From: Clostridiales bacterium
GTDB taxonomy: Bacteria; Bacillota; Clostridia; Christensenellales; Borkfalkiaceae
Length of the DNA stretch: 64,000 nucleotides
Assembly (NCBI GenBank): GCA_015055615.1
Contig: SVHT01000003.1
Location: forward strand, 185,669 to 249,668
Reading direction: 5' to 3'
Shown: positions 18,611-54,421 of the stretch, in pieces
Layout of the letters: every line of letters begins with the position of its first letter
Position numbering within the stretch: the first letter of the stretch is position 1
Made by a program: the position numbers and the translations under genes
Notes under the pieces: generated by a model
What the model saw: the letters and a program-made list of their open reading frames with translations, nothing else
Database searches by the model: none
Told to the model about the DNA's origin: nothing

Positions 18611-21037
18611 TTAGTCGTCCTTTTTCTTTTTGATAAAGCGGAAAATCAAAACGTCTGTCAAAATCAAAATTGCCGCTCCGCCAAGGAGCAAAATCACGAG
18701 CGTCCGAATACCGTCTTTGTCCGTTTTTACGTAGCCGTAAACGTTTTCGTCGGGCGTGGACGGCGTGGCGCTAAACGCAATCGCGTAGCGTTGGGGTACG
18801 TAGCCCGTGCGCGTTACGTTTTCGCTGTCAACGTATTGCACGAGATAGTACGAGTGGTCCAAATCGTTAATTTCGCCAAGGACGGAGATTTGCTCGCCTC
18901 TGGGCAAGGTTACAACCGTCGGTAAATTCGACAGATGGGGGAATTTATAGACGGGGACTTCGTTGCTCGTATACATGGTTGACGGGGTGGAATAGGTTTT
19001 AAAATATTCCTGCTTTTCTTCGTCCGTCAACGCCAAGCAATCGCTGTTTAAAGCAAGGACGGCGCGGTACGCCTTTTTCTCGGTGTCGTAAAAAGCGAGA
19101 ATTGCGTGTTTACCGCTCGGTGTTTCCCCGATTTTGAGCGCCGTCAACGGTGTTTCGCGTCGGCTGTAATCAAGGTAGGGGAAAACCTCTGCGTCCGCAA
19201 GGGAAGAAAGGTCAAAATCTATCAGCATTGCAAAGCCACGGAGCTTGACGATTTCCACGTTTGCGATATTGTCGCCGAGAATTTCTTTGTCTACGCCCTC
19301 GACGGGGAGATTTTTTACCGTGGGTAGGTCGAGTATATCCGTTTTGATTAGATAATTTTCTTTATACAGTACGTACGTGACGTTTTCTTCCACGCCAAAG
19401 GCGAAGGACTGCACCGTTGCGCTTTCGCTGTATACGGGCGGTTCGTTCAAGGCGTATGGGTTGGGCTCGGTTGTCTTTTGCAAGACGCCGTTTGCCAAAG
19501 CGTACACGTCGCCGTTGTAGTCCACAAGGAGTTTTGCCGTAGCGGTGGGCAAGCTAATTGGTAATAATTCGCCTACGTTTGCGCCGTCTAAAAAGCTCTC
19601 TTCGCTGAAACGGTACACGCTGTTACCGCTGGCTACGTACAGATATCCGTACACGTCCGACGTCAACAGCTTTGCGTAGTGCGTGGAAGTTTTTTGGCTC
19701 TCGCTAACCGTCCATGCGGTTTCGGTTACGCCGTCCGTTTCGGTTGTGGTTTCCGTCGCTGCGTAATAATAATTGCTGTCGGTTGCGAAGTAGTATTTGC
19801 CGTAGACGTTCGCTATGCCGACGAGGTTGCCGTGAAAATTGCCAAAGCTCGTGATCTCTTCGCCGTCTTCCGTTAAATCGTACAAAACCGCCTGCGCGTC
19901 GTCTGCCGCAAGCAAGGTGTTTTCGTCGCAAGCGAGATATTTCGGGGCGAAGTCCGTGATAATCGGGGTATCGAAACGGTCGTTTATGACGTCGTATACC
20001 GAGATGCGGTTGTTGCCGTTGTCCGCGATATACAGTCGGTTGTCAAACAGCAGGGTTTCTAAGGCGCTATTCAAGCGGTGTATGCTGCTGGACGCGTTGC
20101 AGATTTCAAAATCGGTAAATTCGGAATTTTCCAAGGAATATTGGCGCACGGAAGAGCCTTTGACGGCGTATACGTAATTGCCAAAAAGGGCAAGGGTGGA
20201 ATACCCGCCTTTATAATGCGCCAACGGAACGACTTCTCTTGCGCTGTGCGCCGTGGCGAATTCCGATAAATTATAGGCGTAGAAATCGCCCGAAAGGGTG
20301 GTGCAAATGAACACGTTTTCGTGGATTTGCATGGACACGAGGTCGTCGGCAAAATCCGCCGCTACTAAGGCGTCCTCTTTGGTGGAGGGGTTTACCTTAT
20401 AAAGGTGCTTGCCAGCGTCCGTGTAATACAGTTCCCCGTTCCAAAAGCAGATGCTCGGTTTGCCCGTTACGGCGTCAAGGGTGTCCGCTTTTGTTCCGTC
20501 CAACGTGATATAGGATATGGACGCTTGCGTTTTTACGTCCGTATAATAGAGCACGTCGTCTACGATTAGGAAGGACGAGCAGGGAAATTTCGGGTCGTTT
20601 TCCGTCAACGATACGTTGCTGACCTGCAAGGTTTCAGGGTGCAGACTGTATAGATAGGTGCCGTCCAAAAAATAGAGCTCGTCGTTGTAAAATTGCAACT
20701 GCATAACGTTGTTTTTGCTGGGATCGGCTTGGTTGAGCGTATGCACGTACTTGCGGTAGTTATCTTTTTGCGCGTCGTAGACGTAGATGAAATTGCCGTC
20801 CGCAATCGCCGTGTAGCCGTCGCTAATCGCAAGGTCCATTGGATTGTTTAGCGAGAGATATTCTTGATAGCTGTCGGGGGCAATCAGCGCGGTTTGTCCG
20901 CTTGCCGTTTGTGCCGTCAGCGTTTGGGCGTTTGCCGTTTGCAGGTTTGCTTTTTGGACAGCGCCAAGCGCCGCCGTCGTTGCAACGAGGGCGGTGAGAG
21001 AAAGTAATAATGCAGTTTTCTTCGCAATTTTTCTCAT
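18611..21037 (-). CDS. Secreted, C-terminally membrane-anchored protein, propeller-like
   Basis: An 808-residue protein of unknown function. It has a cleavable-looking signal peptide (basic MRKIAKK, then a hydrophobic stretch to about 27). Many strand-rich blocks of 40-60 residues follow (patterns such as 'NELYFLDGTYLYSLH' and 'GNFIYVYDAQ'), suggesting a beta-propeller. Near the C-terminus is an SH3-like stretch (LPRGEQISVLGEI ... RTGYVPQRYA), then one membrane segment (about 784-802) and a basic tail. This would be an extracellular binding protein anchored from its C-terminus. It starts eight bases after a -10 box and has no SD. The 249-residue protein at 22018 shares the SH3-plus-anchor plan. 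Confidence 0.75.
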   Translation of the reverse strand: MRKIAKKTALLLSLTALVATTAALGAVQKANLQTANAQTLTAQTASGQTALIAPDSYQEYLSLNNPMDLAISDGYTAIADGNFIYVYDAQKDNYRKYVHTLNQADPSKNNVMQLQFYNDELYFLDGTYLYSLHPETLQVSNVSLTENDPKFPCSSFLIVDDVLYYTDVKTQASISYITLDGTKADTLDAVTGKPSICFWNGELYYTDAGKHLYKVNPSTKEDALVAADFADDLVSMQIHENVFICTTLSGDFYAYNLSEFATAHSAREVVPLAHYKGGYSTLALFGNYVYAVKGSSVRQYSLENSEFTDFEICNASSSIHRLNSALETLLFDNRLYIADNGNNRISVYDVINDRFDTPIITDFAPKYLACDENTLLAADDAQAVLYDLTEDGEEITSFGNFHGNLVGIANVYGKYYFATDSNYYYAATETTTETDGVTETAWTVSESQKTSTHYAKLLTSDVYGYLYVASGNSVYRFSEESFLDGANVGELLPISLPTATAKLLVDYNGDVYALANGVLQKTTEPNPYALNEPPVYSESATVQSFAFGVEENVTYVLYKENYLIKTDILDLPTVKNLPVEGVDKEILGDNIANVEIVKLRGFAMLIDFDLSSLADAEVFPYLDYSRRETPLTALKIGETPSGKHAILAFYDTEKKAYRAVLALNSDCLALTDEEKQEYFKTYSTPSTMYTSNEVPVYKFPHLSNLPTVVTLPRGEQISVLGEINDLDHSYYLVQYVDSENVTRTGYVPQRYAIAFSATPSTPDENVYGYVKTDKDGIRTLVILLLGGAAILILTDVLIFRFIKKKKDD

Positions 21038-21274: not shown

Positions 21275-21304
21275 TTGTCATATTTTACATGATAGAATTA
21301 TTAA
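21275..21304 (+). promoter_or_regulatory. Weak promoter of the phage-like cassette
   Basis: TTGTCA (21275-21280), an 18-bp spacer and TATTAA (21299-21304). The expected transcription start falls within the LexA box, so LexA would block initiation. Both elements are only moderately close to consensus. The remainder of the gap 21075-21274 holds nothing I can identify. Confidence 0.45.
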
Positions 21305-21310
21305 AAAATA

Positions 21311-21324
21311 CGAACAAATGTTCG
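21311..21324. promoter_or_regulatory. Perfect Gram-positive LexA (SOS) box
   Basis: CGAACAAATGTTCG matches every fixed and degenerate position of the Bacillus-type LexA/DinR box CGAACRNRYGTTYG. It lies about 150 bp ahead of the regulator that begins the phage-like cassette. I noticed no second full match in the window. Confidence 0.85.
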
Positions 21325-21438
21325 GGTTTTGATTAAAAACATGGCAGTCCCCCCTTGCAAAAAACGAGGTCGGTGGGATAATATGCGCGTCGGTTGCCTC
21401 GGCTGTTTTTTAGGCGCCGATTGATTAAAAAAATAATG

Positions 21439-21464
21439 GACGGCTGCGCCGTCGTGGAGGTGAT
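21439..21464 (+). promoter_or_regulatory. Stem-loop and SD that fix a TTG start
   Basis: A GACGGC-TGC-GCCGTC hairpin (21439-21453) stands just before the full SD GGAGGTGA (21457-21464). The SD is spaced six bases from TTG at 21471. An ATG at 21463 is in another frame and lies inside the SD, so TTG is the start. Confidence 0.65.
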
Positions 21465-21470
21465 GAAATT

Positions 21471-22001
21471 TTGGAAAATTACGCAAAGGTAATTTTGTAT
21501 GCCTATCCGCTCTTGAAAACGGTCGGCGAAGATTATGCGACGCATATCCGCAACAAAGCGATGCTTTCGTATAACAGTCGGTTGTCGACGGAAAGCTTGG
21601 CGGAATATCTCGCGGGGGAAATTATCGAAAAGAACCGCTTGGAGTGGCTGAAAAATACGATGGAGAGGATTCTTGCCAAATTGACGAACGAGGAGCGGAC
21701 GTTGCTGGATATTCGATATTTTGGAAAGACAAAAAAACTTCGTGATTTTCTGAAAGGACAAGCCGAAAATCGCGAAGGTGGGGGAACGGGTTGTAGTGAA
21801 CGTATGTATTTTCGTCGTCAAAGCCGTTTAGCCGAGAAGATTGGGGCGATGCTCTTCTATGCGGGTATCACCCAAAAAACCTATGACGAGCAGTTTAAAA
21901 ACTTGGCGATTTTTCGCAAGATACATACCTTTGTAGAGGCGGGAAAGGATAAAAAAATTTCGGCGGACGAACGCAGAGTTTTAGGGGATAGCGAGGTGTA
22001 G
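21471..22001 (+). CDS. ArpU/RinA-like phage late-gene regulator
   Basis: A 176-residue protein, TTG start. The middle part has the sigma-region-4-like pattern of phage transcription activators: LTNEERTLLDIRYFGKTK, a loop, then SERMYFRRQSRLAEKIGAML. ArpU, RinA and similar proteins switch on phage packaging and structural genes in Gram-positive bacteria. Here it is the first gene after the LexA box and is followed by the head and packaging genes, interrupted by one reversed gene. I infer that DNA damage relieves LexA, the regulator is made, and it activates the promoter before the terminase gene. The family assignment is by motif and position only. Confidence 0.62.
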   Translation: MENYAKVILYAYPLLKTVGEDYATHIRNKAMLSYNSRLSTESLAEYLAGEIIEKNRLEWLKNTMERILAKLTNEERTLLDIRYFGKTKKLRDFLKGQAENREGGGTGCSERMYFRRQSRLAEKIGAMLFYAGITQKTYDEQFKNLAIFRKIHTFVEAGKDKKISADERRVLGDSEV

Positions 22002-22017
22002 AAAAAGGGTAAACCGT

Positions 22018-22767
22018 TTACTCATCCTTTTCGTAGGGCGGTTTGCGGGGAGATTTTAAGATGAGCGCGGCGAGCAGGGGAACGAGCAGACAAAGGGTGA
22101 TTAAAATGGCGATTTGGGCGGGAGAAGAGCTCTTTTGTTTGGCGGTTGGGGTGGTGGGTTGGACAAGCGTAGCGAGGTAATCGGCGTATTCGGTGTTTTC
22201 TTCAAATTCGATATGGTCGGGTTTAGGGACGTGCCCGAATTCGCCATCTCTAAGGACGTAGCACCACGTTTTTTCGCCGATGGGGTAGTCGCCGTAATAG
22301 GCGCAGGTAAAGGTCAGCTCGGTAAAGCCGTTGCTTTGATTGGTGTTTTCGAGGCGGTAGGTTAGCTCGAAAACGTAGTTAAGGTAGGGGCGTTTGGGCT
22401 GATAATCGACGAAGGCGAGGTGTTGCGTGCGGACGTAGCCCGTCACCTTTTGCGTGTAGGCGTCCGTTTCTAAATATTCTACCTTACAATAATTTTCGCC
22501 GTAGGAAAGCAGTCGGACGTAGTAGGTTTTGGGGAGAAGAAAAACGCCGTCCTGTCCGCCTGGCGACAGATAAAAATAGGCGTCGTCGGACAAAACGCAG
22601 GCATACGTACCCGATTTAGGAGGCTCGGCGGTCGATTGCGTAGAAGATTGCGTGGCAGATTGCGCCGACACGACATAGGGCGGCGCGTAAAACGGCGAGC
22701 AGATGGCAAGCAACGTATATAGGATAAGCAGTAGGGGCAGAAACGCCCGTAAAATGATTTTTTTCAT
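22018..22767 (-). CDS. Secreted SH3-like protein with C-terminal membrane anchor
   Basis: A 249-residue protein on the opposite strand, inside the phage-like cassette. A signal peptide or N-terminal membrane segment (about 5-33) is followed by a Ser/Thr/Gln-rich stretch. An SH3-like region comes next (SDDAYFYLSPGGQDGVFLLP ... VTGYVRTQHLAFV), then a C-terminal membrane helix (about 214-236) and a charged tail. The plan repeats the C-terminal part of the 808-residue protein at 18611. A host-derived or cargo gene carried by the element is possible, and so is a later insertion. Function is unknown. Confidence 0.72.
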   Translation of the reverse strand: MKKIILRAFLPLLLILYTLLAICSPFYAPPYVVSAQSATQSSTQSTAEPPKSGTYACVLSDDAYFYLSPGGQDGVFLLPKTYYVRLLSYGENYCKVEYLETDAYTQKVTGYVRTQHLAFVDYQPKRPYLNYVFELTYRLENTNQSNGFTELTFTCAYYGDYPIGEKTWCYVLRDGEFGHVPKPDHIEFEENTEYADYLATLVQPTTPTAKQKSSSPAQIAILITLCLLVPLLAALILKSPRKPPYEKDE

Positions 22768-22850
22768 AATGGTGTGAAGGCAATTAAAAAAATTCGTTCT
22801 ATCATTATAAAGAGGATACGGGCGCGTTTTTTGGGGGATTTGGAGAGAGT

Positions 22851-24284
22851 ATGAGAGATATTGTAGAAAGGATTTGCAAAATCGAGGCGGAGATAAAAAA
22901 ACGGCGGGAAACGGATTTTTTAGCCGTCTATAACACAGGGGAAAAGAAACACGAAAAACAGCTCGCCTTTCACAAATGCCAAAAGCGCAACCGTTGGGTA
23001 TTCGGCGGAAACCGTTCGGGCAAGACGGAGTGCGGGGCGGTGGAGTGCGTGTATATGGCGCGCGGGATTCACCCCTATCGGCAAAACCGCAAGGACGTGT
23101 GCGGTTGGGTGGTTTCGCTGTCTACGCAGGTGCAAAGGGACGTCGCGCAAAAGAAAATTCTTCGGTATCTTCGCAAGGATAAAATTGTCGATATCGTGAT
23201 GCTCAGCGGTAGAAAGGACGCGCCCGAGCATGGCGTAATCGATTTTATCCGCGTAAAAAACGAGTTGGGTGGAACTTCGGTGATTGGCTTTAAAAGTTGC
23301 GACCAAGGCAGGGAAAAGTTTCAAGGTACGTCGCTTGATTTCGTGTGGTTTGACGAGGAACCGCCCGAGGATATCTATATCGAGTGTCGTATGCGCGTCA
23401 TGGATAAAAAGGGGGATATTTTCGGGACGATGACGCCTTTGAAGGGCTTGACCTTTGTCTATAACGAAATTTATCTCAACCGTCACGCAGACCCCGAGGT
23501 TTGGTATGAGTTTGTCGAGTGGTGTGATAACCCCTATTTGGACGAGGGAGAAATTAGGGCGCTTGAAATGACTTTGGACGAGCCGTCGTTGCAATCTCGG
23601 CGGTATGGGAAATTTGCCGCTGCGGGCGCGGGGCTGGTGTATCCGGAATTTGACGAGAGCGTGCACGTTATCGAGCCGTTTGCTCTGCCTGCCGAGTGGC
23701 AGGATATGATTTCGATAGACCCCGGGTTTAATAATCCTCTTTCCGCGCATTGGTATGCGGTCGATTACGACGACAACGTGTACGTGGTGGCGGAGCATTA
23801 CGAGGCGGGGAGGGACGTTGATTATCATGCGGAAAAAATCAAGCAAATCAGCGAGAAAATCGGTTGGCATACCGACGGGCAAGGCAGGCTCTGCGCGCTG
23901 ATTGACAGCGCGGCAAAGCAAAGGACGCTGGGGAGCGTCAAGAGTGTGGTGGAGCTGTTTTACGAGCGGGGAATCTTGGTAAACCCAAACGTAGAAAAGG
24001 ACCTTTTTTCGGGAATTGCGCGGGTGAAGAGTTATCTAAATCGGCAAAACGGGTTGCCCAATCTGTATATTTTTAAAAGCTGTGCGCATTTGATTAGCGA
24101 GCTGAAAGGGTATCGTTGGGGGAGCGGGGATTTGCCGAGAAAGGTGGACGACCATAGCTTGGACGAGATGCGCTATTATTTGATGACAAAGCCCAAAAAG
24201 GTGCGTGTGGAAGAAAAAACGGTTATCCAAAAGGATAAGGAGCGCAGAATTCGTAGGCTTAGGCGAGGGAATTTTAGTATGTGA
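22851..24284 (+). CDS. terL: Phage large terminase subunit
   Basis: A 477-residue DNA-packaging motor. The ATPase half has Walker A GGNRSGKTE (52-60), Walker B LDFVWFDEEP (162-171) with the catalytic Glu, and the coupling motif FGTMTPLKG. The RNase H-like nuclease half shows acidic residues in ISIDPGFNN (D290), ALIDSAAK (D352) and DDHSLDEMRYYL (434-444). All motor and nuclease residues appear present, so it is not obviously decayed. GGAGAG precedes the ATG. It starts the uninterrupted series of head genes and translocates DNA into the capsid through the portal encoded two genes later. Confidence 0.92.
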   Translation: MRDIVERICKIEAEIKKRRETDFLAVYNTGEKKHEKQLAFHKCQKRNRWVFGGNRSGKTECGAVECVYMARGIHPYRQNRKDVCGWVVSLSTQVQRDVAQKKILRYLRKDKIVDIVMLSGRKDAPEHGVIDFIRVKNELGGTSVIGFKSCDQGREKFQGTSLDFVWFDEEPPEDIYIECRMRVMDKKGDIFGTMTPLKGLTFVYNEIYLNRHADPEVWYEFVEWCDNPYLDEGEIRALEMTLDEPSLQSRRYGKFAAAGAGLVYPEFDESVHVIEPFALPAEWQDMISIDPGFNNPLSAHWYAVDYDDNVYVVAEHYEAGRDVDYHAEKIKQISEKIGWHTDGQGRLCALIDSAAKQRTLGSVKSVVELFYERGILVNPNVEKDLFSGIARVKSYLNRQNGLPNLYIFKSCAHLISELKGYRWGSGDLPRKVDDHSLDEMRYYLMTKPKKVRVEEKTVIQKDKERRIRRLRRGNFSM

Positions 24285-24298
24285 GGGAGTGAGAGAAT

Positions 24299-24742
24299 AT
24301 GAAAGGCGGTAAGGAAGAGAAGATTGGAGAGGCTCTGTTAAAGGTTGCCCTCGGGTATCAAATTGCGGAGGTGACCGAGGAGTATGCCGAGGTGGACGGG
24401 GCTTTGAAATTGACCAAACGAAAGAAGACGAAAAAGGACGTGCCACCCGATTTGAAAGCCGTCCAAATGCTCTTGGAAGGGAACGGGGGCGAGGAGTATT
24501 CGGGGTGGTCGGACGAGGAATTGGAAAGGGAAAAAGCGAGGTTGTTGCAGGCGTTAGGGATGGGCTTGCAAACGGGCTTACAAACGGGCGAGCAAACGCA
24601 AACGGCGGGGGACGTGATCGCGGTGAAGACAAAAACGCCGAAAAAAGTGGGAACTGCCACGGCGAAAAAGTCCGTCCAAAAGAAAACTGTATCGAAAAAA
24701 TCCGTCGCGAAAAAGACGGTAAAAAAGAAAACGGAAAAATAA
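24299..24742 (+). CDS. Basic small protein, possible small terminase or packaging partner
   Basis: A 147-residue protein between terminase and portal genes. The N-terminal part (ALLKVALGYQIAEVTEEYAE ... KKDVPPDLKAVQMLLEG) recalls small proteins next to clostridial phage terminases that may act as small subunits. This likeness is from memory and not tested. The last 40 residues are Lys/Thr/Ala/Val repeats (KKTVSKKSVAKKTVKKKTEK), a histone-H1-like tail that should bind DNA. A short glycine/threonine/glutamine repeat (TGLQTGLQTGEQTQT) precedes it. Spacing to both neighbours is under 20 bp. Confidence 0.55.
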   Translation: MKGGKEEKIGEALLKVALGYQIAEVTEEYAEVDGALKLTKRKKTKKDVPPDLKAVQMLLEGNGGEEYSGWSDEELEREKARLLQALGMGLQTGLQTGEQTQTAGDVIAVKTKTPKKVGTATAKKSVQKKTVSKKSVAKKTVKKKTEK

Positions 24743-24760
24743 GCAAAAGGAGCAAAAAGT

Positions 24761-26629
24761 ATGAAAGGAACAACGTTTTCCGAAGAGGAACTTCGGGCGA
24801 AAGAGAAAAGGGAGCAGGAGCTTGCGCGGGAGGTAACGGAAGATTTTTTACGGCGCAGAGAAGAGCGCAGGGCGGTGGAAAACGGCTGGGCGCTGAATAT
24901 CAATTTTTTCAGCGGGAATCAGTACTGCGACGTGGCGCCGTCGGGGGAAATCGTGGAAGAGGACAAGCGGTTTTATTGGCAATCGCGCAGGGTGTTTAAC
25001 CATATCGCGCCCACCGTCGATTCCCGTATTGCAAAGCTCGAAAAGCAAAAGACGGAACTGCGTGTACGCGCTTTTTCGGACGAAGAGGGGGATTTGCAGG
25101 CGGCAAAGCTGGCGACCGGGGTGCTGAAATACGTGCAGGAACGGGTAGGTTTGCAGGAGGCAACGTCGAGAGCTTTGGTCTGGGCGGAAACGTGCGGCAG
25201 CGTCTTTTACAAGGTGCTTTGGAACGAAAAGGGTGGTAGACAGGTTGCGGTGGACGAGCAGGGCGCGCCCGTGTACGAGGGGGAAGTGCAGGTGTCCGTC
25301 GTGCCCCCGTTTGAGGTCTTTCCCGATCGATTGGACGCGGAGGATTTTGACGGGCTGCGCAGCGTGATTCACGCGCAAGCGGTTTCCGTGGAATATATCC
25401 GCGAACGGTTCGGCGTGGCGGTGCAGGGTAGGGACGTGTCCGCGATTATGGGGTACAGCGAGCCGTCTGCGGGCAAGAATTCGGCGGGCTTTGCAAAGAA
25501 AAATACCGCAACGCTTAAAGACGGCGAGGTGTTGATTGAGCGTTACACGCGACCGAGCGAAGATTTTCCCGACGGGCGATTGGAGATTGTTGCGGGCGGA
25601 AAGCTCCTTTACGAGGGGGATTTGCCCTATATCAACGGCGAGCGCGGGGAGAGGACCTTTCCGTTTGTCAAGCAGGATTGCTTGCGTTTGCCTGGGGCGT
25701 TCTTTTCCAGCAGCGTCATTGACCGCTTGATTCCCGTGCAACGGGCGTATAACGCGGTGCGAAACCGCAAGCACGAGTTTTTGAACCGCGCCTCGATGGG
25801 TGTGCTGACTGTCGAGGACGGCTCGGTGGATACGGACGAGCTGAGCGAAGAGGGGCTGTTGCCCGGGAAGGTGTTGGTGTACCGTCAAGGGGGGAAAGCG
25901 CCCGAGATGCTCGATTGCGGGAACGTGCCGAGTGAGTTTAAGAGTGAAGAGGAGTGGCTGGAAAAGGAATTTTCGCTCATTAGCGGTGTGAGTGAGTTGA
26001 CGACGAATTCGACGCCTGTGCGCGTGACGAGCGCGACGGGGCTACAACTGCTTTTAAACCAAGACGACAACCGTTTGTCGGCAACGACGGCGTGTATTCG
26101 GCGCGCGATGAAGGGGATTGCCCGACAGATTTTGCGATTGTATAGACAGTTTGCGGGGACGGCGAGATTGATGACGCTGACGGGGGAAAATAAGAAAACG
26201 CAGATTTATTATTTCAATGCGTCCCGTTTGGACGTGTCCGATATTCAGTTTGAGGCGCAAGAAAGTTCGTCGCCCGATGAGAAAAAGAGGGTTTTGTTGC
26301 AGTTGTACGAGGCGGGCTTGCTGACCGATGAGAACGGCAAGCTCTCGCAAGAAAACAAAAACCGTGTTTTGGAGGCTTTTGGGTTTGGAAGCTATGAAAA
26401 CGCAAAGGATATTTCGGCTCTGCACACGGCAAAGGCAAGCGAGGAAAATTTGGCGCTGAAAGCGGAGGACGTGGCGGTGGACGAATATGACGACCATGCG
26501 TTGCATTTGAACGAGCACGTACGCTTTTTGCTGTCGGCGGAATTTAAGCGCGCGAAGGACCAAGAGGGTATTAAGGCAAGGTTCCTTGCGCACATGGAAA
26601 AACATAAAAAAGCGCAAAACGCGCAGTAA
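24761..26629 (+). CDS. Phage portal protein
   Basis: A 622-residue protein of the P22 gp1-like portal size class. It has the portal-type N-terminus (ALNINFFSGNQY, WQSRRVFNHIAPTVDSRIAKLEKQ). The wing/stem region includes VIDRLIPVQRAYNAVRNRKHEFLNR, and the crown-side segment includes SATGLQLLLNQDDNRLS. The portal forms the twelve-fold ring at one capsid vertex through which DNA enters. Its length (P22 gp1 is about 725) and order next to terminase, scaffold and coat genes fit a podovirus-like head. The frame is intact and the scaffold-like gene starts 13 bp later. Confidence 0.88.
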   Translation: MKGTTFSEEELRAKEKREQELAREVTEDFLRRREERRAVENGWALNINFFSGNQYCDVAPSGEIVEEDKRFYWQSRRVFNHIAPTVDSRIAKLEKQKTELRVRAFSDEEGDLQAAKLATGVLKYVQERVGLQEATSRALVWAETCGSVFYKVLWNEKGGRQVAVDEQGAPVYEGEVQVSVVPPFEVFPDRLDAEDFDGLRSVIHAQAVSVEYIRERFGVAVQGRDVSAIMGYSEPSAGKNSAGFAKKNTATLKDGEVLIERYTRPSEDFPDGRLEIVAGGKLLYEGDLPYINGERGERTFPFVKQDCLRLPGAFFSSSVIDRLIPVQRAYNAVRNRKHEFLNRASMGVLTVEDGSVDTDELSEEGLLPGKVLVYRQGGKAPEMLDCGNVPSEFKSEEEWLEKEFSLISGVSELTTNSTPVRVTSATGLQLLLNQDDNRLSATTACIRRAMKGIARQILRLYRQFAGTARLMTLTGENKKTQIYYFNASRLDVSDIQFEAQESSSPDEKKRVLLQLYEAGLLTDENGKLSQENKNRVLEAFGFGSYENAKDISALHTAKASEENLALKAEDVAVDEYDDHALHLNEHVRFLLSAEFKRAKDQEGIKARFLAHMEKHKKAQNAQ

Positions 26630-26642
26630 ATAAGGAGGAATT

Positions 26643-27386
26643 ATGGAAAAAAAGGAGAACGTTTACGGGGAACAAAACGCTACGGAGAAGGATATGAAGG
26701 AAAAGGCGGAGACGGGGGAGCAAAACGGTCTGCCGCAGGAAGTCTCGACGGTGGCGGGGAAGTTTAAGGACGTAAGCGCCCTTGTTAGGGCGTACGAGTC
26801 GTTGCAAGCGGAGTTTACGAGAAGAAGTCAGCGACTCAAAGAGTTGGAAAAGCTCGCGGAGAATCTCAACGAGGAGAAGGGCGCGGAGGGTTCGGATAAG
26901 TTGGGGGCGGAAAAGCTCCGTAAAACTGCCGAAAGCAGACGGGAAAAAGCGAAGGCGTTCGACGAGTTCGTTTTGGACGTGAACAAAGCGCGCGACGAGG
27001 TGAGACCCGACGGGAAAATTAGCCCTACGGCAACGGCGGAAAAATCCGACGAAAACGCCGAAAATACGGCAAACGAGCAGGGACGTGTCGAAACCACGGA
27101 AAAGGAAGAGGATTTGAAGGCGGAAAAGGAAGGCGTCGTGGACGCGGAAAAAACGCTCGGTCCGTCCGTTGCAGGAAACGTTCCGTCGGCGGAAGAGTTG
27201 TATTTGCAAGTTTGTCGTGACGAGGGGGTGCGTCTTCGTATCATCGGGGAATATTTGTCCTCGGTGGGAAGAAGCGCGCCGCCTATAACCGCCGCGGGGG
27301 TGGGGACGTTCGTTTCGCCACCGCGCAAAGCAAAGAGCATCGGCGACGCGGCTACGATGGCTTTGCAATATTTTAAAAAGCCGTGA
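26643..27386 (+). CDS. Scaffold-like protein of the phage head module
   Basis: A 247-residue, highly charged protein rich in Glu, Lys and Ala. Long helical, coiled-coil-prone stretches are visible (KFKDVSALVRAYESLQAEFT, RRSQRLKELEKLAENLNEEK), and the C-terminus is GDAATMALQYFKKP. Sequence alone does not prove the role. Its place between portal and major capsid genes, its composition and its size fit an internal scaffolding protein, as gp8 does in P22. GGAGG precedes the ATG. Confidence 0.72.
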   Translation: MEKKENVYGEQNATEKDMKEKAETGEQNGLPQEVSTVAGKFKDVSALVRAYESLQAEFTRRSQRLKELEKLAENLNEEKGAEGSDKLGAEKLRKTAESRREKAKAFDEFVLDVNKARDEVRPDGKISPTATAEKSDENAENTANEQGRVETTEKEEDLKAEKEGVVDAEKTLGPSVAGNVPSAEELYLQVCRDEGVRLRIIGEYLSSVGRSAPPITAAGVGTFVSPPRKAKSIGDAATMALQYFKKP

Positions 27387-27423
27387 CAAACGGTAAAATT
27401 ATCAAAAAAATAAGGAGAATAAA

Positions 27424-28581
27424 ATGGTAACACTTAACAGCGCAGACAGCGTATTGAAATCTTATTACTTGGACGCGATTAGCGAATCGCTCAACTACAA
27501 ATCCAACCCTTTCTTCGCAAAAATCGAACGCACGGCAAACGACGTCGTGGGTAAGGACGTGAGAAAGGTGATTAGAAACGGCTTTAACGCAGGCATTGGC
27601 GTGGGGACGGAAACGGGCAATCTACCTACGGCGCGCGCAAGCGAATACAAAACCTTTATCGCGCCTTTGAAAAACCTTTACGGCACGATTGAAATTTCCG
27701 ACAAGGCGCTCCGCGTGTCCGCAAACAACGAGGGCGCGTTCGTCAATATTCTCAACGAGGAAATGAAGGCGTTGGAAAAGAGCGCGGCGTTTAATTTTAG
27801 CCGTATGCTCTTTGGCGACGGCACGGGCGTGCTTTCGACGGTAAGCGGTGTCACGAACGGCCGTATTGCCGTGGATAGACCTGAAAATTTTGTGGAAGGT
27901 ATGTTGATTGCTTTCGAGGGGTTGGCCGACGGGTTTACTTGTTGTAAGGTTAAAATCGTCGACAGAGCGAGCAACGCGATTCAAATTGAAACGACGGCGA
28001 CGGTAGATGAAAGCGCGGTGCCTGCTGGGACGAAAATCTATCTTTACGGCTCGAACGGCGATGAAATTACGGGCTTGGAGGCGATTTTTTCGACGACTGC
28101 GCCCCTTTACGGAGTGGAAAGAAGTAAGCCCGGTATGATTCCGTACATGAATACCGTTGCGGCGATTAGCGAATCGGGCATTCAGAAAGCCATTGATACC
28201 GTGGACGAGAAGAGCGGTTGTAAGGTGGACTTTATTATCTGTTCGTGGGGGGTACGTCGCGCGTTAATCGAATACTACAAGGGCGCGGGCGTGGCTGTGC
28301 CTACGATGCAGCTAGAAAACGGCGACACCGTAATCAGCTTTAACGGTATCCCCGTTTTGGCGGACCGTTTCTGCCCGAAGGGTACGATGTATTTGCTTAC
28401 GAGCGAGAATTTCAAACTTCACCAGCTTTGCGATTGGCAATGGTTGGAGTCGGAAGACGGTAAGATTTTGAAACAGGTGAGCGGTAAACCCGTATATCAA
28501 GCAACCTTGGTCAAATATGCGGAGCTTATCTGCGAAAATCCTGCGGCGCAGGCGAAAATTTCGGGGATTCCCGAAAGATAA
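27424..28581 (+). CDS. Phage major capsid protein, HK97-fold type
   Basis: A 385-residue protein. The N-terminus (SADSVLKSYYLDAISESLNY), the central NLYGTIEISDKALRVSANNEGA and the C-terminal half with a coat-like SFNGIPVLADRFCPKGTMY suit an HK97-fold coat protein, here without a prohead protease gene nearby. This is the usual arrangement in P22-like heads. Codon use is regular, the SD (AAGGAG) is strong, and the frame is complete, so it looks expressible in large amounts. It is followed by a hairpin that could limit read-through to the neck genes. Confidence 0.85.
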   Translation: MVTLNSADSVLKSYYLDAISESLNYKSNPFFAKIERTANDVVGKDVRKVIRNGFNAGIGVGTETGNLPTARASEYKTFIAPLKNLYGTIEISDKALRVSANNEGAFVNILNEEMKALEKSAAFNFSRMLFGDGTGVLSTVSGVTNGRIAVDRPENFVEGMLIAFEGLADGFTCCKVKIVDRASNAIQIETTATVDESAVPAGTKIYLYGSNGDEITGLEAIFSTTAPLYGVERSKPGMIPYMNTVAAISESGIQKAIDTVDEKSGCKVDFIICSWGVRRALIEYYKGAGVAVPTMQLENGDTVISFNGIPVLADRFCPKGTMYLLTSENFKLHQLCDWQWLESEDGKILKQVSGKPVYQATLVKYAELICENPAAQAKISGIPER

Positions 28582-28651
28582 TTTTTTCGGCGTTTTGCGT
28601 GCTTGCGTCGTGTGAAAGCGACGGCGTGAAACTTTGAAAAATTCGGAAAGG

Positions 28652-28694
28652 CGGCACCCGTGTACGCGTTGAATCGCGGAAAGGGTGCCGTTTT
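28652..28694 (+). terminator. Hairpin between capsid and neck genes
   Basis: CGGCACCC (28652-28659) pairs with GGGTGCCG (28683-28690). An inner CGCG/CGCG stem sits in the loop, and four T residues follow. It looks like a leaky terminator or processing site that would keep the coat transcript more abundant than the neck genes. Confidence 0.6.
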
Positions 28695-28750
28695 GACGAA
28701 TAGGGATAGAGAAAAAGTGAAAGAATAAATATGAGGAGGTAACGAGAAAA

Positions 28751-29305
28751 ATGACGGTGAAAGAGTGTATGGAGCTCGCCGCGGTGCATTTGGGAATATC
28801 GGATTCGATACAAGCATGTTTTGCGGGTGGAGCTACGAGTGAGGACTCGAAAAAGGGGGCGTTGCTGTTGACCTGTTTTAATATCGTAGAAAATGAACTC
28901 GCGCTCGATTATTTTCCGCTCCTTGCGGAGGATACGTTGAACACGGATGGGGGCATTGTGGCGTTTTCCGCGCTGAAAAACCCTGCGGTACGTATCACGA
29001 AGGTGACGGACGAGTGGGGCAATTCGACTGCCTTTCAACTGTTTCCGAGCTATTTAAAAACGCAACCCGGCGAGGTGAAGGTTACGTATACGTATACCCC
29101 CGTCGGCAAGGAAAAGGAGGACGTAAGCGATTTTAACTCGGCTGTGTCCGCGCGGTTGATTTCGTACGGTATGGCGGCGGAGTACGCTATGGCGATGGGA
29201 CTTTTTGAGGACGCCGCCGTGTGGGATAAAAAATATAAGGACGGTATTCGCGCGGCGTATCGCGTGCAAAAGTGCGAGCGTATCCGTTCGAGAAGGTGGG
29301 TGTGA
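28751..29305 (+). CDS. gp4-like head-to-tail adaptor protein
   Basis: A 184-residue protein directly after the capsid gene. It is helical at the start (TVKECMELAAVHLGISD) and at the end (SARLISYGMAAEYAMAMGLF, WDKKYKDGIRAAYRVQK) around a short strand region (FQLFPSYLKTQPGEVKVTYT). Adaptors such as P22 gp4 (166 residues) or HK97 gp6 bind under the portal and close the filled head. The call rests on size, helical plan and order. Its stop overlaps the next start as TGATG, so the two products are made in a fixed ratio. Confidence 0.62.
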   Translation: MTVKECMELAAVHLGISDSIQACFAGGATSEDSKKGALLLTCFNIVENELALDYFPLLAEDTLNTDGGIVAFSALKNPAVRITKVTDEWGNSTAFQLFPSYLKTQPGEVKVTYTYTPVGKEKEDVSDFNSAVSARLISYGMAAEYAMAMGLFEDAAVWDKKYKDGIRAAYRVQKCERIRSRRWV

Positions 29306-30711
29306 TGATTGGATTGGAAAAGAGCGCAATCGAGAGAAAAAGTAAGAGGAAAACGGTGGTTTTCGATCGCTTTGCCGCGCCGTACGGGTCGCTTGGTGAA
29401 TCGGCGTTTGGGATTACGGGCGGCGAAGGGGGCGGTCTGCGTTCGAGTGAAACGCTCTACGCGAAAACGATGGTAAATTGCGACCTCTCGCAAGGGGCTT
29501 TAAGGTCGGGCGTGGGGGCAAGCGTGGTAACGGACGGCGCAGGAAAGAATGTAAGAGTCAGTGAGAGCAATATAACCAAGATTTTTTGCGTGCGGTTTCA
29601 AGGCGGTGCGCAAGAGGGCGGAAAGGACTTCTTTGCTTTTTTGCGGGGGGACGGGTATCTTCTTTATTATGACGAGGAAACGGCAGAACTTTCCGCAAAG
29701 GGGATAATGGGCAACGATACGAGTTGTGTGTTTTTGCGTTCGATAAAGGGGGAAGAGCGGTACTTGTTCGTTGGGTCGAATAATGCGCGTTTTTTGAGTC
29801 CGACGGGCGTGTTTGGTTCGGCTCCTTTCGGTGAGTATATCGGCGTGGTATGCGCGTGCAAAAACCGTTTGTTTGCAGTGAAGAAAGAGGGTAAGTTAGC
29901 GTATTCTAGCCCGACGGAGCCGTGGACTTTTAGAGATGACATTGACGACAGCGGGTACATCTTGTTGCCGTCGGCGCTGGGCACCCCCATTACGTTGCTT
30001 GCCGTCGGCGAATACGTGTACGTCTTTTTTAAGCATGCGATAAAGCGTTTGCGCGTGGCGGGTAACGCAAGAGATTTCGTTTTGGAAGATATCGTATACA
30101 GCGGTGGGCAAATTATAAAGGGCTCGGTTTGCGCGGTGGAAAACGGCGTGATATTTTTGGCGAAAGACGGGCTGTGGAAGGCGCAGGGTACGGACTTACA
30201 GCCCATTGGCAGGACGTTGGATATTATCTTGGACGAGGGCGTGGAGGAGTGCCAAGCCGCTGTTTGCGAGGGAAAATATTTCTTCCGTTATCGTACTATT
30301 GGGGGTTTGTATCAATCGTTTGTGGCGGAGTTGGACGGAAAAAGTTGGTGTTTTTCTTACGACTTGATAGGTTTGAGCCAAGGAAACGGTACGGCGTTTT
30401 TTGTCAGAGGCGGTAGGCTGTATCGCCTAGGCGGAAGTAAGTTTCTCGTTGGCGGTACCCCTATGTTTGAGAGTGTGAAAACGGAGTTTGGCGTGCGCGG
30501 ACAAAAGACGTTGCGCAGATTGGAGTTTTCCGGTGTGGGAACGCTACAAATAACGGTGGATTGTGACGGAAAGAAGTTTACGCGCGAGGCAAGTTTTGCA
30601 GGCGGTAGGGCGATTATTCCGATAACGATGCGCGGTAATGCGTTTTCTTTTGCGATGCGGTTGGCGGACCAAGCGATTGTGACCGGTGTGCGCGCGGACG
30701 TGGAGTACTGA
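29305..30711 (+). CDS. gp10-like neck / DNA-stabilisation protein, propeller-like
   Basis: A 468-residue, strand-rich protein, close in length to P22 gp10 (472), which follows gp4 in P22 and holds the packaged DNA. Repeated blades are visible (KFFCVRF-like blocks, ICVVCACKNRLFAVKKEGK-like turns, 'GVIFLAKDGLWKAQGTDLQP'). The segment FAVKKEGKLAYSSPTEPWTF is typical of these phage propeller proteins. The start is taken as the ATG overlapping the previous stop, not the earlier in-frame ATG at 29272. Function is inferred from order, size and fold impression. Confidence 0.62.
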   Translation: MIGLEKSAIERKSKRKTVVFDRFAAPYGSLGESAFGITGGEGGGLRSSETLYAKTMVNCDLSQGALRSGVGASVVTDGAGKNVRVSESNITKIFCVRFQGGAQEGGKDFFAFLRGDGYLLYYDEETAELSAKGIMGNDTSCVFLRSIKGEERYLFVGSNNARFLSPTGVFGSAPFGEYIGVVCACKNRLFAVKKEGKLAYSSPTEPWTFRDDIDDSGYILLPSALGTPITLLAVGEYVYVFFKHAIKRLRVAGNARDFVLEDIVYSGGQIIKGSVCAVENGVIFLAKDGLWKAQGTDLQPIGRTLDIILDEGVEECQAAVCEGKYFFRYRTIGGLYQSFVAELDGKSWCFSYDLIGLSQGNGTAFFVRGGRLYRLGGSKFLVGGTPMFESVKTEFGVRGQKTLRRLEFSGVGTLQITVDCDGKKFTREASFAGGRAIIPITMRGNAFSFAMRLADQAIVTGVRADVEY

Positions 30712-30724
30712 AAAGGAGAACAAT

Positions 30725-31198
30725 ATGGAAATTGATATTATTTCTTATACGCCGTCGCAATATACGGCGCTGACGAACGAACAGCTTACGCAAGTAAAAG
30801 AGGCGCAGATTAAGAAAAACGAATTGTTGCAGGAGTATGCGACGCGTTTGCAAAAAGAAAAAGGGCGGTTGATTGAAAACGGCATAATCGCATCGGGGAT
30901 ATGGCCGAAGTTGGAGGAAAAGCTCCGCAATGAATGTAACAATGCGGTGGCTTGGGTGCGTGATACCTTGCTCTTTTATCTGCAATATTCGGGCGCGGAG
31001 GCAATGCTGAACGCGCCGTATAAGGTGGATTTGACTTTGCCGATTGAGGAGCGTTTGGCGATTGTAAAGGATTACTACTACACGACGTACAGCAATGCTT
31101 TGGAGCGATTAAACGCCTATGAAAAGGACGAGGTCGCGATGAAATATTTGGGCGAGGTTTACGCGATGCTGTACGATTATCTCGAAGACGATTTGTAA
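30725..31198 (+). CDS. Unknown last gene of the head cassette
   Basis: A 157-residue, mainly helical acidic protein that I do not recognise. It begins MEIDIISYTPSQYTALTNEQ, with a coiled-coil-prone stretch (VKEAQIKKNELLQEYATRLQ), a Trp-containing middle part (IWPKLEEKLRNECNNAVAWV) and an acidic end (YDYLEDDL). AAAGGAGAA precedes the ATG at 30725, which fixes the start over an upstream in-frame ATG. In P22 the gene after gp10 encodes the tail needle gp26, but the sequence gives no support for that here. It ends 32 bp before the cassette terminator. Confidence 0.6.
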   Translation: MEIDIISYTPSQYTALTNEQLTQVKEAQIKKNELLQEYATRLQKEKGRLIENGIIASGIWPKLEEKLRNECNNAVAWVRDTLLFYLQYSGAEAMLNAPYKVDLTLPIEERLAIVKDYYYTTYSNALERLNAYEKDEVAMKYLGEVYAMLYDYLEDDL

Positions 31199-31230
31199 AA
31201 AAAAGCTGTATAGAGCGAAAAGAAGGCAAA

Positions 31231-31263
31231 GAGCTGACGGCGTGAAAACCGTCGGCTCGTTTT
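31231..31263 (+). terminator. Terminator closing the phage-like cassette
   Basis: GAGCTGACGG (31231-31240) pairs with CCGTCGGCTC (31249-31258) along ten positions including one G-T pair, followed by GTTTT. Confidence 0.85.
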
Positions 31264-33179: not shown

Positions 33180-34232
33180 ATGAAAAAGACAAAAAGATGG
33201 TTATGTTTGGCGATTGGTTTGAGTATGGTGGCGGGGCTTTCCTTTACCTCGTGTAAAAAGGACGATATTCCCGCAGAGGAAATTACGGTGTATATGCCCG
33301 ACGGCGCGCCTGCGTTGGCGCTTGCGGGGCTGATGAGCCAAGATACGCTTGGGGACGGGGTGACCTACCGCGTGGTAAATGCGGCGCAGATTGCCGCGAC
33401 TACGACGAACGCCGATAGGGAAAAAAATGCCGACCTTTGCGTGATGCCTATCAATGCTGCGGCAAAATTGCACGGGGAGAGCGGGGAGTATACCATGCTC
33501 GGCGCGGTCACGCACGGGAATTTGTATATGATAGAGGTGCTCACTGCGAACGACGTTGTACCGCCCGAACCTATTTTTGAAGGGTACACGGCGGAGAATC
33601 TGTCGACGCTCATCGGGAAAAAGGTGGGCGTATTGCAGATTAACAACGTGCCGGGGTTGACCTTTAAGGCGGTTTTAAACAAGCACGGTATCCCTTGGCA
33701 GGAAATGACGAGCGCGGGGAGCGTAGCGGTAGATAAGGTCAATTTGGTGGCGCTCACGGATGCAAGCGCGGTGACGAGCGTGAGCGCGAAATGTTTCGTG
33801 ATTGCAGAGCCCGCGGCGACGGCGCAAGCGAAAAACAATTTTTCTATCGTGGGGGATTTGCAGTCTCTCTACGGCGGTGAAAACGGGTATCCGCAGGCGG
33901 TTTTGCTGGCAAAAACGGAATTGGTGGAAAGCAAAAGCGCATGGCTGAAGGAGTTTGCGGTAAAGGTGCAAGAATCGGCGGTTTGGCTGGCGAGCGCGAG
34001 TGGAAACGAGGTTGTGGCGGCGGTAAACGCGCACATGGCGGACGCGGACATGACGACGAGCCTGAAAGCTCCCCTTTTGACGGCGGACGTGTTGGGGCGT
34101 TGCGGTGTGCGGTTTGCATACGCGGGGGATATCAAGGACGAGGCGACGGCGTTTTTGGAAGATTTGATTACGGTCAACGCGCAGGCGACAAAGTTGCCGA
34201 CGGAGGCGTTCTTCTGGGCGTATACGCCTTAA
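33180..34232 (+). CDS. ABC importer substrate-binding lipoprotein, NMT1/SsuA-like
   Basis: A 350-residue lipoprotein. The signal peptide ends SFTSC, a lipobox-like site at Cys22 or nearby. The mature part fits a type II periplasmic-binding fold of the NMT1/THI5/SsuA group: YMPDGAPALALAGLM at the start, DLCVMPINAAAKLH, GKKVGVLQINNVPGLTFKAV, and CFVIAEPAATAQ. Known members bind alkanesulfonates, taurine, nitrate or thiamine precursors, and the ligand here is not determinable. The permease and ATPase genes follow in order, making a complete importer. Confidence 0.85.
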   Translation: MKKTKRWLCLAIGLSMVAGLSFTSCKKDDIPAEEITVYMPDGAPALALAGLMSQDTLGDGVTYRVVNAAQIAATTTNADREKNADLCVMPINAAAKLHGESGEYTMLGAVTHGNLYMIEVLTANDVVPPEPIFEGYTAENLSTLIGKKVGVLQINNVPGLTFKAVLNKHGIPWQEMTSAGSVAVDKVNLVALTDASAVTSVSAKCFVIAEPAATAQAKNNFSIVGDLQSLYGGENGYPQAVLLAKTELVESKSAWLKEFAVKVQESAVWLASASGNEVVAAVNAHMADADMTTSLKAPLLTADVLGRCGVRFAYAGDIKDEATAFLEDLITVNAQATKLPTEAFFWAYTP

Positions 34233-53563: not shown

Positions 53564-53875
53564 ATGCAAGTACGCGCACGGTTAGACGATAAAATTTTAT
53601 ATATGGAACTCAGCGGCGAAATCGACCAACACAACGCCGCGCGGACAAGACAAGCGGTGGACCAATACGCCGACCATTACTGCGCAAACGCCGAAAAGGC
53701 GGTGTTTGATTTGCAAAACGTGTCGTTTATGGATTCGACGGGAATTGGTTTTTTAATCGGCAGATATAAAAAATTTACCCGCTATGGCATACCCGTATAC
53801 ATAGCGAATCCCTCTACGGCAACCAACCGAATCTTGCAAATGAGCGGTATTTATACCCTAATTCCAAAACTGTAA
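53564..53875 (+). CDS. spoIIAA: Anti-sigma F factor antagonist SpoIIAA
   Basis: A 103-residue STAS-domain protein. The phosphorylatable serine is in NVSFMDSTGIGFLIGRY (Ser about 58), the signature of SpoIIAA. When dephosphorylated it binds SpoIIAB and frees sigma F in the forespore. AAGGAGAG precedes the ATG. It is the first gene of spoIIAA-spoIIAB-sigF, the three-gene switch that commits one compartment to sporulation. Confidence 0.95.
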   Translation: MQVRARLDDKILYMELSGEIDQHNAARTRQAVDQYADHYCANAEKAVFDLQNVSFMDSTGIGFLIGRYKKFTRYGIPVYIANPSTATNRILQMSGIYTLIPKL

Positions 53876-53887
53876 GGAGAACGAAAT

Positions 53888-54421
53888 ATGTGTAATTATA
53901 TGAAATTAGAGATTGCGGCGCGTAGCGAAAACGAGCGCTTTGCCCGTAGCGCGGTGGCGGCGTTTGCCCTTTGCTTAAATCCGTCCTTGTCCGAGCTTTC
54001 GGATATCAAAACGGTGGTTTCGGAAGGGGTAACCAACGCCATTGTACACGCCTACGGCAAGTCGGGCAAAGGGGCGATACGCATCGAGTGCACGGCGGAA
54101 AACAACGGCGTCGGCGCGGACGGGCAAGAGTGCACGGGTGGTATTTTACATATTGCAATCACCGATTACGGCTGTGGGATTGAGGACGTAGAACAAGCCC
54201 TGACGCCCTTTTATACGACGCTGGAAAACGAGGAGCGTTCGGGTATGGGGTTTACGGTTATGCAGACCTTTTGCGACGGTTTTGCCGTGGAAAGCACGCG
54301 CGGGCAGGGGACGAGCGTTCGATTGACAAAGCGGATAGGCTTGCCTTTGACGGAAGATACGCAACCGCCTTGCGAGGGAGAATTGGTCGGGTTGGAAAAG
54401 GACGGAGTTCATGCTGGATGA
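53888..54421 (+). CDS. spoIIAB: Anti-sigma F factor / kinase SpoIIAB
   Basis: A 177-residue GHKL kinase, slightly longer than the usual 140-150 because of a C-terminal tail. The N-box is SEGVTNAIVHAYG, the G1 box DYGCGIEDVEQA, and the G2 region ERSGMGFTVMQTF. It holds sigma F inactive with ATP and phosphorylates SpoIIAA. The sigF start codon lies within its last 11 bases, so the two are made in linked amounts. The insertion NGVGADGQECTGG in the middle is not in B. subtilis SpoIIAB. Confidence 0.94.
   Translation: MCNYMKLEIAARSENERFARSAVAAFALCLNPSLSELSDIKTVVSEGVTNAIVHAYGKSGKGAIRIECTAENNGVGADGQECTGGILHIAITDYGCGIEDVEQALTPFYTTLENEERSGMGFTVMQTFCDGFAVESTRGQGTSVRLTKRIGLPLTEDTQPPCEGELVGLEKDGVHAG

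Follow-up and report, generated by a model that had tools for sequence, protein, structure and literature searches.

What is a compact set of phage head genes doing on its own in a clostridial chromosome, enclosed by cellular genes? The question is posed by a 64,000-nucleotide stretch of DNA (hereafter, the window; contig SVHT01000003.1, positions 185,669 to 249,668, assembly GCA_015055615.1) from a Clostridiales bacterium of the family Borkfalkiaceae, the metagenome-assembled genome of which amounts to 1.69 Mb in 12 contigs and is 94% complete; Borkfalkia is placed by NCBI within the order Christensenellales. Along the locus lie, in this order, prop (minus strand), a LexA-type box, reg, SH3 (minus strand), the large terminase TerL, a small terminase-like protein (TerS), portal, a scaffold-like protein, the major capsid protein, neck1, g10, C170, and a hairpin. 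Our best reading is that this cassette belongs to an apparently new, order-wide lineage of podovirus-like gene transfer agents (GTAs), probably linked to the SOS (DNA damage) response and akin to FpGTA of Faecalibacterium. We estimate at about 0.72 the probability that it is the head operon of a GTA-like element, that is, a podovirus-derived gene set taken over by the host lineage.

The capsid gene is present in 54 of the 57 genomes of the window's genus, in 283 of 301 genomes of the family (165 of the 173 good ones), including all 18 genera, and in 237 of 396 genomes of the order (202/330 good ones), representing 72 of 142 genera, nearly always in a single copy per genome. Of the 33 families drawn from the order, 18 by our reading include a carrier genome and 15 do not. 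Across the class, 26 of 391 genomes contain the gene; 12 of these are outside the order, five of them from one genus of family f76. Gene order was compared in 80 named loci, which ranked highest among 418 confirmed relatives, and in 20 far loci hand-picked from long contigs of seven families, with profiles built without open reading frames (ORFs) outside length limits. All seven core genes were found in 66 named loci and are collinear in every one of these; TerL, portal, capsid, neck1, and g10 reach at least 85% of the median length in 62 of the 66, and the remaining 14 named loci are missing genes at one end or at both. The six genes from TerS to g10 are collinear in all 20 far loci. A LexA-type box precedes reg in 51 of 52 named loci (those with a reg match and at least 550 bases upstream, which left out 28 of the 80), compared to a mean of 0.12 of 52 in shuffled sequences. 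Together with the hundreds of carrier genomes and the 66 seven-gene loci, this is more than chance would produce.

Inheritance of the cassette is mostly vertical. The capsid plus portal tree recovers families f1, f3, f6, f28, and f32 as monophyletic groups (support 0.998-1). A cassette tree built within the genus from 23 loci (L073 was left out as a duplicate of L072) and the tree of the flanking genes for dUTPase and TrmB have 6 of 20 splits in common, against 0.2 expected at random; the Mantel correlation between them (r 0.51) was not equaled in any of 2000 permutations, the single-gene value (r 0.31) being weaker. Phage-derived structural genes that are fixed in the chromosome and passed on vertically, with some tree conflict, are what one expects of a GTA, and the host lineage apparently acquired the podovirus-derived set before the present carrier families diverged.

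The cassette is also maintained by selection. Median ratios of nonsynonymous to synonymous substitution rates (dN/dS; Nei-Gojobori method, NG86, pairs with dS <1.2), which are only rough because dS is near saturation and NG86 was used, are 0.19 for TerL, 0.24 for portal, 0.30 for capsid, 0.37 for TerS, 0.47 for scaffold, 0.52 for both SH3 and C170, 0.53 for neck1, 0.55 for reg, 0.65 for prop, and 0.94 for g10. The host neighbors give 0.17 (dUTPase), 0.13 (TrmB), and 0.13 (Rex); MgtE yielded no pairs. The low values of TerL, portal, and capsid indicate purifying selection, as is expected of GTA genes. No close free phage was found in the phage collection, where capsid matches reach at most 28% identity (13 records) and the best 15 of 455 TerL matches show 27-31% identity. 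The earlier note on this DNA had described intact, SOS-linked head genes and had named conserved synteny, dN/dS well below 1, and lack of free phage relatives as the signs of domestication; the distribution, selection, and box bear out an intact, SOS-linked, domesticated gene set, and the three signs hold for synteny, for TerL, portal, and capsid, and for the phage collection, respectively.

The packaging machinery points in the same direction. TerL (22851..24284, plus strand, as are the genes that follow it) matches Pfam Terminase_6N (E-value 4e-10) and 6C (1e-5), and what we take to be Walker A, Walker B, and the nuclease aspartates D290, D352, and D438 are identical in 82 of 82 long sequences. 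TerS (24299..24742) matches phrog_309 (4.5e-6) at model positions 197-262 of 319. In all 11 TerS tried of the 116 found (the window and 10 relatives; E 5e-9 to 0.006, two reaching only 0.003 and 0.006), the match begins no earlier than about position 191, that is, the N-terminal 190 or so model positions of the phage TerS are gone, and the lost part would be the DNA-binding domain. The TerS of RcGTA, the GTA of Rhodobacter capsulatus, appears to lack the N-terminal DNA-binding domain, which is proposed there as a mark of GTA-type TerS (PMC6854486); the cassette TerS is as expected of this type. Judging from the form of TerS and the analogy with RcGTA, packaging looks non-specific. The window TerS ends (24600-24742) in a lysine-rich, histone H1-like tail, and lysine plus arginine make up at least 30% of the last 40 residues in 37 of the 116 TerS.

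The regulatory region suggests DNA-damage (SOS-type) control of the cassette in the window's group. The box CGAACAAATGTTCG, a motif match at 21311..21324, lies ahead of reg (21471..22001, plus strand), a 176-amino-acid (aa) likely DNA-binding regulator with profile matches in 57 of 80 named and 12 of 20 far loci. A search with a relaxed pattern also detected such a box in 9 of the 12 far-family loci that contain reg (shuffled mean 0.6 of 12). Reg itself resembles sigma70 region 4 only at a weak E-value; against PDB profiles, it matched sigma factors at 0.27, and there was no match in the phage collection. A full LexA gene is present in the window's genome, and a relaxed LexA-type motif occurs there at 10 sites, including lexA, ruvCAB, uvrBA, and the cassette; the others are next to helicase-like, radical-SAM-like, and integrase genes, at two positions inside the stretch L211, and at one (L212) without a clear SOS gene, all gene names at these sites being our presumptive assignments from the sequence. 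A second SOS-controlled operon for lysis or tails in the same genome was sought through these 10 sites, and by eye no lysis or tail genes were seen beside them. The motif GAACAAATGTTC has two copies only in the genome, one in the cassette and the other at a tyrosine integrase gene (L155/L156, G000:C7:1-1300) at a contig end.

The head genes come next, tightly spaced. Portal (24761..26629) matches P22_portal at 2e-19 and phrog_156 at 1e-41; the scaffold-like protein (26643..27386), named for its position between portal and capsid, is recognized by its profile in 79 of 80 named loci and matches no family above the cut-off (a spectrin-repeat match at 0.016 is below it); and the major capsid protein (27424..28581) matches phrog_14242 at 1e-45. 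Next come neck1 (28751..29305), a neck- or adaptor-like protein assigned by gene order and by weak matches to phrog_2941 in 5 of 29 members and to phrog_2377 in 2 of 29, and g10 (29272..30711, with the start likely near 29305), a probable tail hub or nozzle that matches phrog_511 at 1e-9. These two occupy the places and, in the case of g10, have the size of gp4 and gp10 of phage P22; in the Pelagibacter phage Baldr, the same places are taken by tail tubular proteins A and B. Against PDB profiles, g10 has weak beta-propeller matches (to designs, at 3e-5) and neck1 nothing better than 0.24. Equating g10, neck1, and C170 with P22 gp10, gp4, and gp26 was tried by profile comparison without significance. 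A repeat with 6 gp10 and 5 gp4 sequences plus the Baldr tail proteins gave a best P of 0.023 for g10 and gp10, and the comparison of the Baldr proteins with neck1 and g10 was likewise not significant. C170 (30686..31198, likely start 30728), a helical protein without a Pfam match of its own, is related to, but shorter than, the c18/DUF7934 protein found in other families (hhalign probability 96%, E 1e-9), in which the operon continues past g10 with c18 (DUF7934 in the member scanned).

The locus had been called head-only. No tail spike is recognized, but the term itself is doubtful given the positions of neck1 and g10, even with non-significant profiles; gene position makes a head with a possible stub tail the better description. 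Beyond g10, relatives vary. In L177 (G336), the genes after g10 encode a tail-like protein (phrog_4577, 1.6e-4) and a protein with LysM and DUF7934 that resembles endolysins and hints at the origin of c18 and C170. In four loci of far families (L170, L179, L187, L189), variable genes of 310-593 aa, with no match in the library scanned, are candidates for receptor-binding proteins. Two IMG/VR loci (L131, L134) have the usual genes up to the capsid but no match to neck1 or g10; a different group of genes, one encoding a 902-946 aa protein, comes next and may be an exchanged tail module.

Lysis genes, also said to be missing, present a mixed picture. Pfam matches place a BhlA holin in the operon of 9 of 20 far loci and a Phage_holin_1-like protein in 11 of 20. 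Among the 57 genomes of the window's genus, BhlA was found in none (the positive control matched) and the Phage_holin_1-like profile in none either, in a search without a positive control. The absence is therefore upheld for the genus, as far as it was searched for holins, but not for those sister families that have both holins in the operon.

From this gene content, we infer the following course of events. DNA damage would remove LexA from the box at 21311, reg would be made, and TerL and the head genes would be turned on. Portal, scaffold, and capsid would assemble into a prohead, and TerS, devoid of its N-terminal part, would let TerL load host DNA at random, as the comparison with RcGTA suggests. 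The two connector proteins, to judge by their position, would seal the head as a stub tail; cells would be lysed, by holins in some sister families and by another route in the window's family; and particles with host DNA would be released, perhaps reaching kin.

Two further genes of the locus encode apparent surface proteins. Prop (18611..21037, minus strand), a conserved neighbor with profile matches in 47 of 80 named loci and 1 of 20 far loci, is an 808-aa secreted protein with a signal peptide, a beta-propeller-like N-terminal part, an SH3-like C-terminal part, and a C-terminal membrane segment (signal peptide, SH3 part, and membrane segment were read from the sequence); in Pfam, only NHL and Ldl_recept_b were matched, below the cut-off. 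SH3 (22018..22767, minus strand; 58 of 80 named and 16 of 20 far loci) is a 249-aa protein with a signal peptide, an SH3-like domain, and a C-terminal membrane segment, without a Pfam match. Neither has a match in 50,697 phage records. Wherever the two were found together, SH3 and TerL are encoded on opposite strands (58 of 58 named, 16 of 16 far, and 9 of 9 IMG/VR loci), and 77 of the 78 loci that have reg, SH3, and TerL place SH3 between the other two, such that transcription from reg to TerL would run antisense to SH3; the gap between SH3 and TerL shows no convincing conserved motif. Possibly, this arrangement is a switch between a non-producing state in which SH3 is made and a producing one, and SH3 could perhaps be a receptor for the particles or a protection from those of kin. 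That the cassette represents a GTA lineage of ancient origin, with two surface proteins made by the host, prop and SH3, incorporated in the locus, is a tentative idea that we consider rather doubtful. We know of no earlier case, although no search was aimed at one, of a GTA operon that includes a module for a receptor or for self-protection; if the idea is true, prop and SH3 would be the first, to our knowledge.

Upstream of the cassette, the genes scanned are cellular (HAD, PALP (CysK-like), MgtE), as are those downstream (dUTPase, Methyltransf_4 (TrmB-like), ABC, Rex-like, TilS), with no family match for the gene at 33180-34229 in the scan. The terminator-like hairpin at 31231..31258 (plus strand) has 10 pairs and a T-run; 25 hairpins of this kind were observed in the region compared to 14.7 in shuffles, so the hairpin alone is weak evidence for a terminator. 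No integrase or replication gene was found among the window locus genes scanned (Pfam, phrog), as is expected of a GTA; in other loci, some of the ORFs were scanned. Most of the earlier note's account of the locus is thereby confirmed: terminase, portal, scaffold-like, capsid, and two neck-like genes, a regulator with a LexA box ahead of it, a closing terminator, cellular genes on both sides, and no integrase. Its gene list, correct in the parts that it named, had missed TerS, C170, and SH3. Elsewhere in the window, at 53564-55136, there are genes that we take to be similar to spoIIAA, spoIIAB, and the sigma-F gene, so the host is probably a spore former.

Some relatives have rearranged, disrupted, or additional loci. 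In 5 of the 7 genomes of family f28 that were checked, reg, SH3, and TerL lie apart from the head genes, at a distance of about 44 kb (G354), 40 kb (G423), 38 kb (G374), or 23 kb (G613), or on another contig (G660); in G621 and G392, the TerL group adjoins the head genes. Retention of both halves in the split genomes fits domestication. TerL was recovered in 23 of 30 genomes picked mainly for a missing or partial capsid or from f28. In five genomes from two genera of the window's family (G166, G125, G290, G105, G062; L232-L236), terL stops at about residue 279 at a near-identical junction, as if targeted by a site-specific mobile element; in four of the five, the contig ends soon past the junction, and in G062, a DNA methyltransferase and a Thoeris system (ThsA, two ThsB) replace the 3' part of terL to near the end of the capsid gene. 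Among the relatives examined for decay, it was seen only where a foreign insert struck terL. A tandem pair of capsid genes is present in G392 (G392:C2:8035-10367), and two genomes of family f76, G821 (L219) and G881, have two capsid matches each, on different contigs. Beside the more divergent capsid of G821, genes of 482 and 1628 aa lie past g10, and this locus is possibly a real prophage relative. Of the IMG/VR relatives, 9 of 27 resemble the chromosomal cassettes in having reg and SH3, and many others are too short to tell; there may be a free phage among the remaining ones.

Several observations weigh against the cassette being an SOS-controlled GTA. In the window cassette, neither lysis genes (holin, endolysin) nor a gene for receptor binding were recognized (no genome search was made for endolysins), which leaves release and delivery unexplained there. 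No LexA-type box was detected upstream of reg in the five f28 loci that are split, which also showed no common promoter motif, and of the 9 IMG/VR loci that contain reg, only 2 have the box; control by the SOS response may therefore not extend across the order. Neither the relaxed motif (10 sites vs 22 for the reversed control) nor GAACNNNNGTTC (26 vs 62, each strand) is enriched in the genome. Evolution is rapid in six genes (g10, prop, reg, neck1, C170, and SH3), for which median dN/dS is 0.5-0.94. Two near-complete genomes, G331 (listed as 100% complete) and G082 (95%), are without capsid or TerL, which makes the cassette dispensable. Finally, 4 of the 9 well-supported flank splits contradict the cassette tree and family f19 is non-monophyletic in the capsid plus portal tree, which indicates some exchange of the cassette.

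Particles might be made and loaded with DNA that they do not deliver, the cassette being an SOS-triggered lysis or killing device like PBSX and packing a by-product, which we judge to be improbable. The SOS-type box and the lack of a recognized receptor-binding gene in the window would suit such a device, and delivery is unproven for FpGTA as well, according to its description (PMC12946183). However, the conservation across families of the catalytic residues of TerL (82/82) and of TerS (in all 20 far loci) would be surprising if DNA packing were only incidental. Besides, killing of the PBSX type relies on long tail and baseplate genes, none of which is recognized in the locus. The heads could also serve in a role other than transfer, for example, as a container for DNA or protein in the SOS response or sporulation; this we find quite unlikely. 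The lack of recognized tail spike and lysis genes in the window cassette and the surface proteins without phage matches would fit; the holins of some sister families and the connector genes kept in 20 of 20 far loci would not.

Head genes in a locus where neither a tail spike nor an integrase is recognized are reminiscent of a capsid-forming satellite using a helper's tail. The earlier suggestion that the cassette awaits such a tail is unsupported: several families share the cassette by inheritance, and no integrase is among the genes scanned; given, in addition, that it is near-universal in the family, mostly single-copy, and mostly vertical, with no replication gene among those scanned, we regard a satellite as very unlikely. 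A recent defective prophage would likewise put phage head genes into a chromosome, but, with order-wide presence, purifying selection, and decay confined, in the relatives examined, to the foreign insert in terL, we give this explanation almost no credence. The head operon of a GTA-like element remains our preferred reading. If it is true, a widespread, mostly uncultured gut group makes gene-transfer particles upon DNA damage as an inherited, family-wide trait; the cassette would be the second podovirus-like GTA lineage among Gram-positive-type bacteria; and its natural series of variants (with holins or without, with a split TerL, with a foreign insert) could be used to ask what maintains GTAs. 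It would also provide a candidate gene set for the GTA-like packaging in Christensenellaceae metagenome-assembled genomes (MAGs) from human stool, to which the available part of the FpGTA report attributes 3 of 25 events without naming an operon, its authors having searched other MAGs for operons (PMC12946183). A full-text literature search joining gene transfer agents with Christensenell- found only that paper, and none was found on domesticated phages in Christensenellales or virus-like particles in Borkfalkiaceae.

Several known systems bear comparison with the cassette. A GTA in the strict sense is one for which packaged DNA and its transfer are shown; the cassette is a candidate. Salmonella phage P22 has the same order of TerL, portal, scaffold, capsid, a small gene, gp4, and gp10, with similar protein sizes, and the window portal belongs to the P22_portal family; the small gene after the capsid has a counterpart only in other families, not in the window's cassette, and, unlike in P22, no needle, tailspike, ejection, integrase, or repressor genes are recognized at the window locus. 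PBSX of Bacillus subtilis has a contractile tail and kills, whereas a search of the locus gave no match to a contractile tail module (sheath, tube, baseplate). Integrase and excision genes and patchy presence, which we take to be the marks of cfPICI-type satellites, do not characterize the cassette. RcGTA is like the cassette in vertical inheritance and host control; it differs in its siphovirus-like type, the cluster including genes for a long tail, and in its regulation by CtrA/GafA, not LexA.

The published descriptions add further parallels. RcGTA, like the cassette, appears to have a TerS without the N-terminal DNA-binding domain (PMC6854486), and PBSX is SOS-induced, packs host DNA, and is fixed in the chromosome (PMC12946183). 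FpGTA, present in all twelve Faecalibacterium genomes examined by its authors (Borodovich et al., Nat Commun 2026, PMC12946183), is a podovirus-like element of gut Clostridia with a head operon of about 10 kb that encodes TerL, portal, scaffold, capsid, and phage-related hypothetical proteins; its TerS is also without an obvious DNA-binding domain, further structural and lysis genes lie apart from the head operon, and the particles have no identifiable tail. According to the same source, FpGTA particles and packaged DNA have been observed, whereas those of the cassette are predicted from its genes, and its likeness to FpGTA is drawn from the published description. In addition, FpGTA is described from one genus of another order, whereas the cassette spans families of an order; TerS precedes TerL in FpGTA and follows it in the window; and the cassette, unlike FpGTA as described, has a conserved LexA-type box and two surface-protein genes in the locus. 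Altogether, the cassette appears to resemble FpGTA and RcGTA most, in host control, apparently non-specific packaging, and no recognized means of self-spread.

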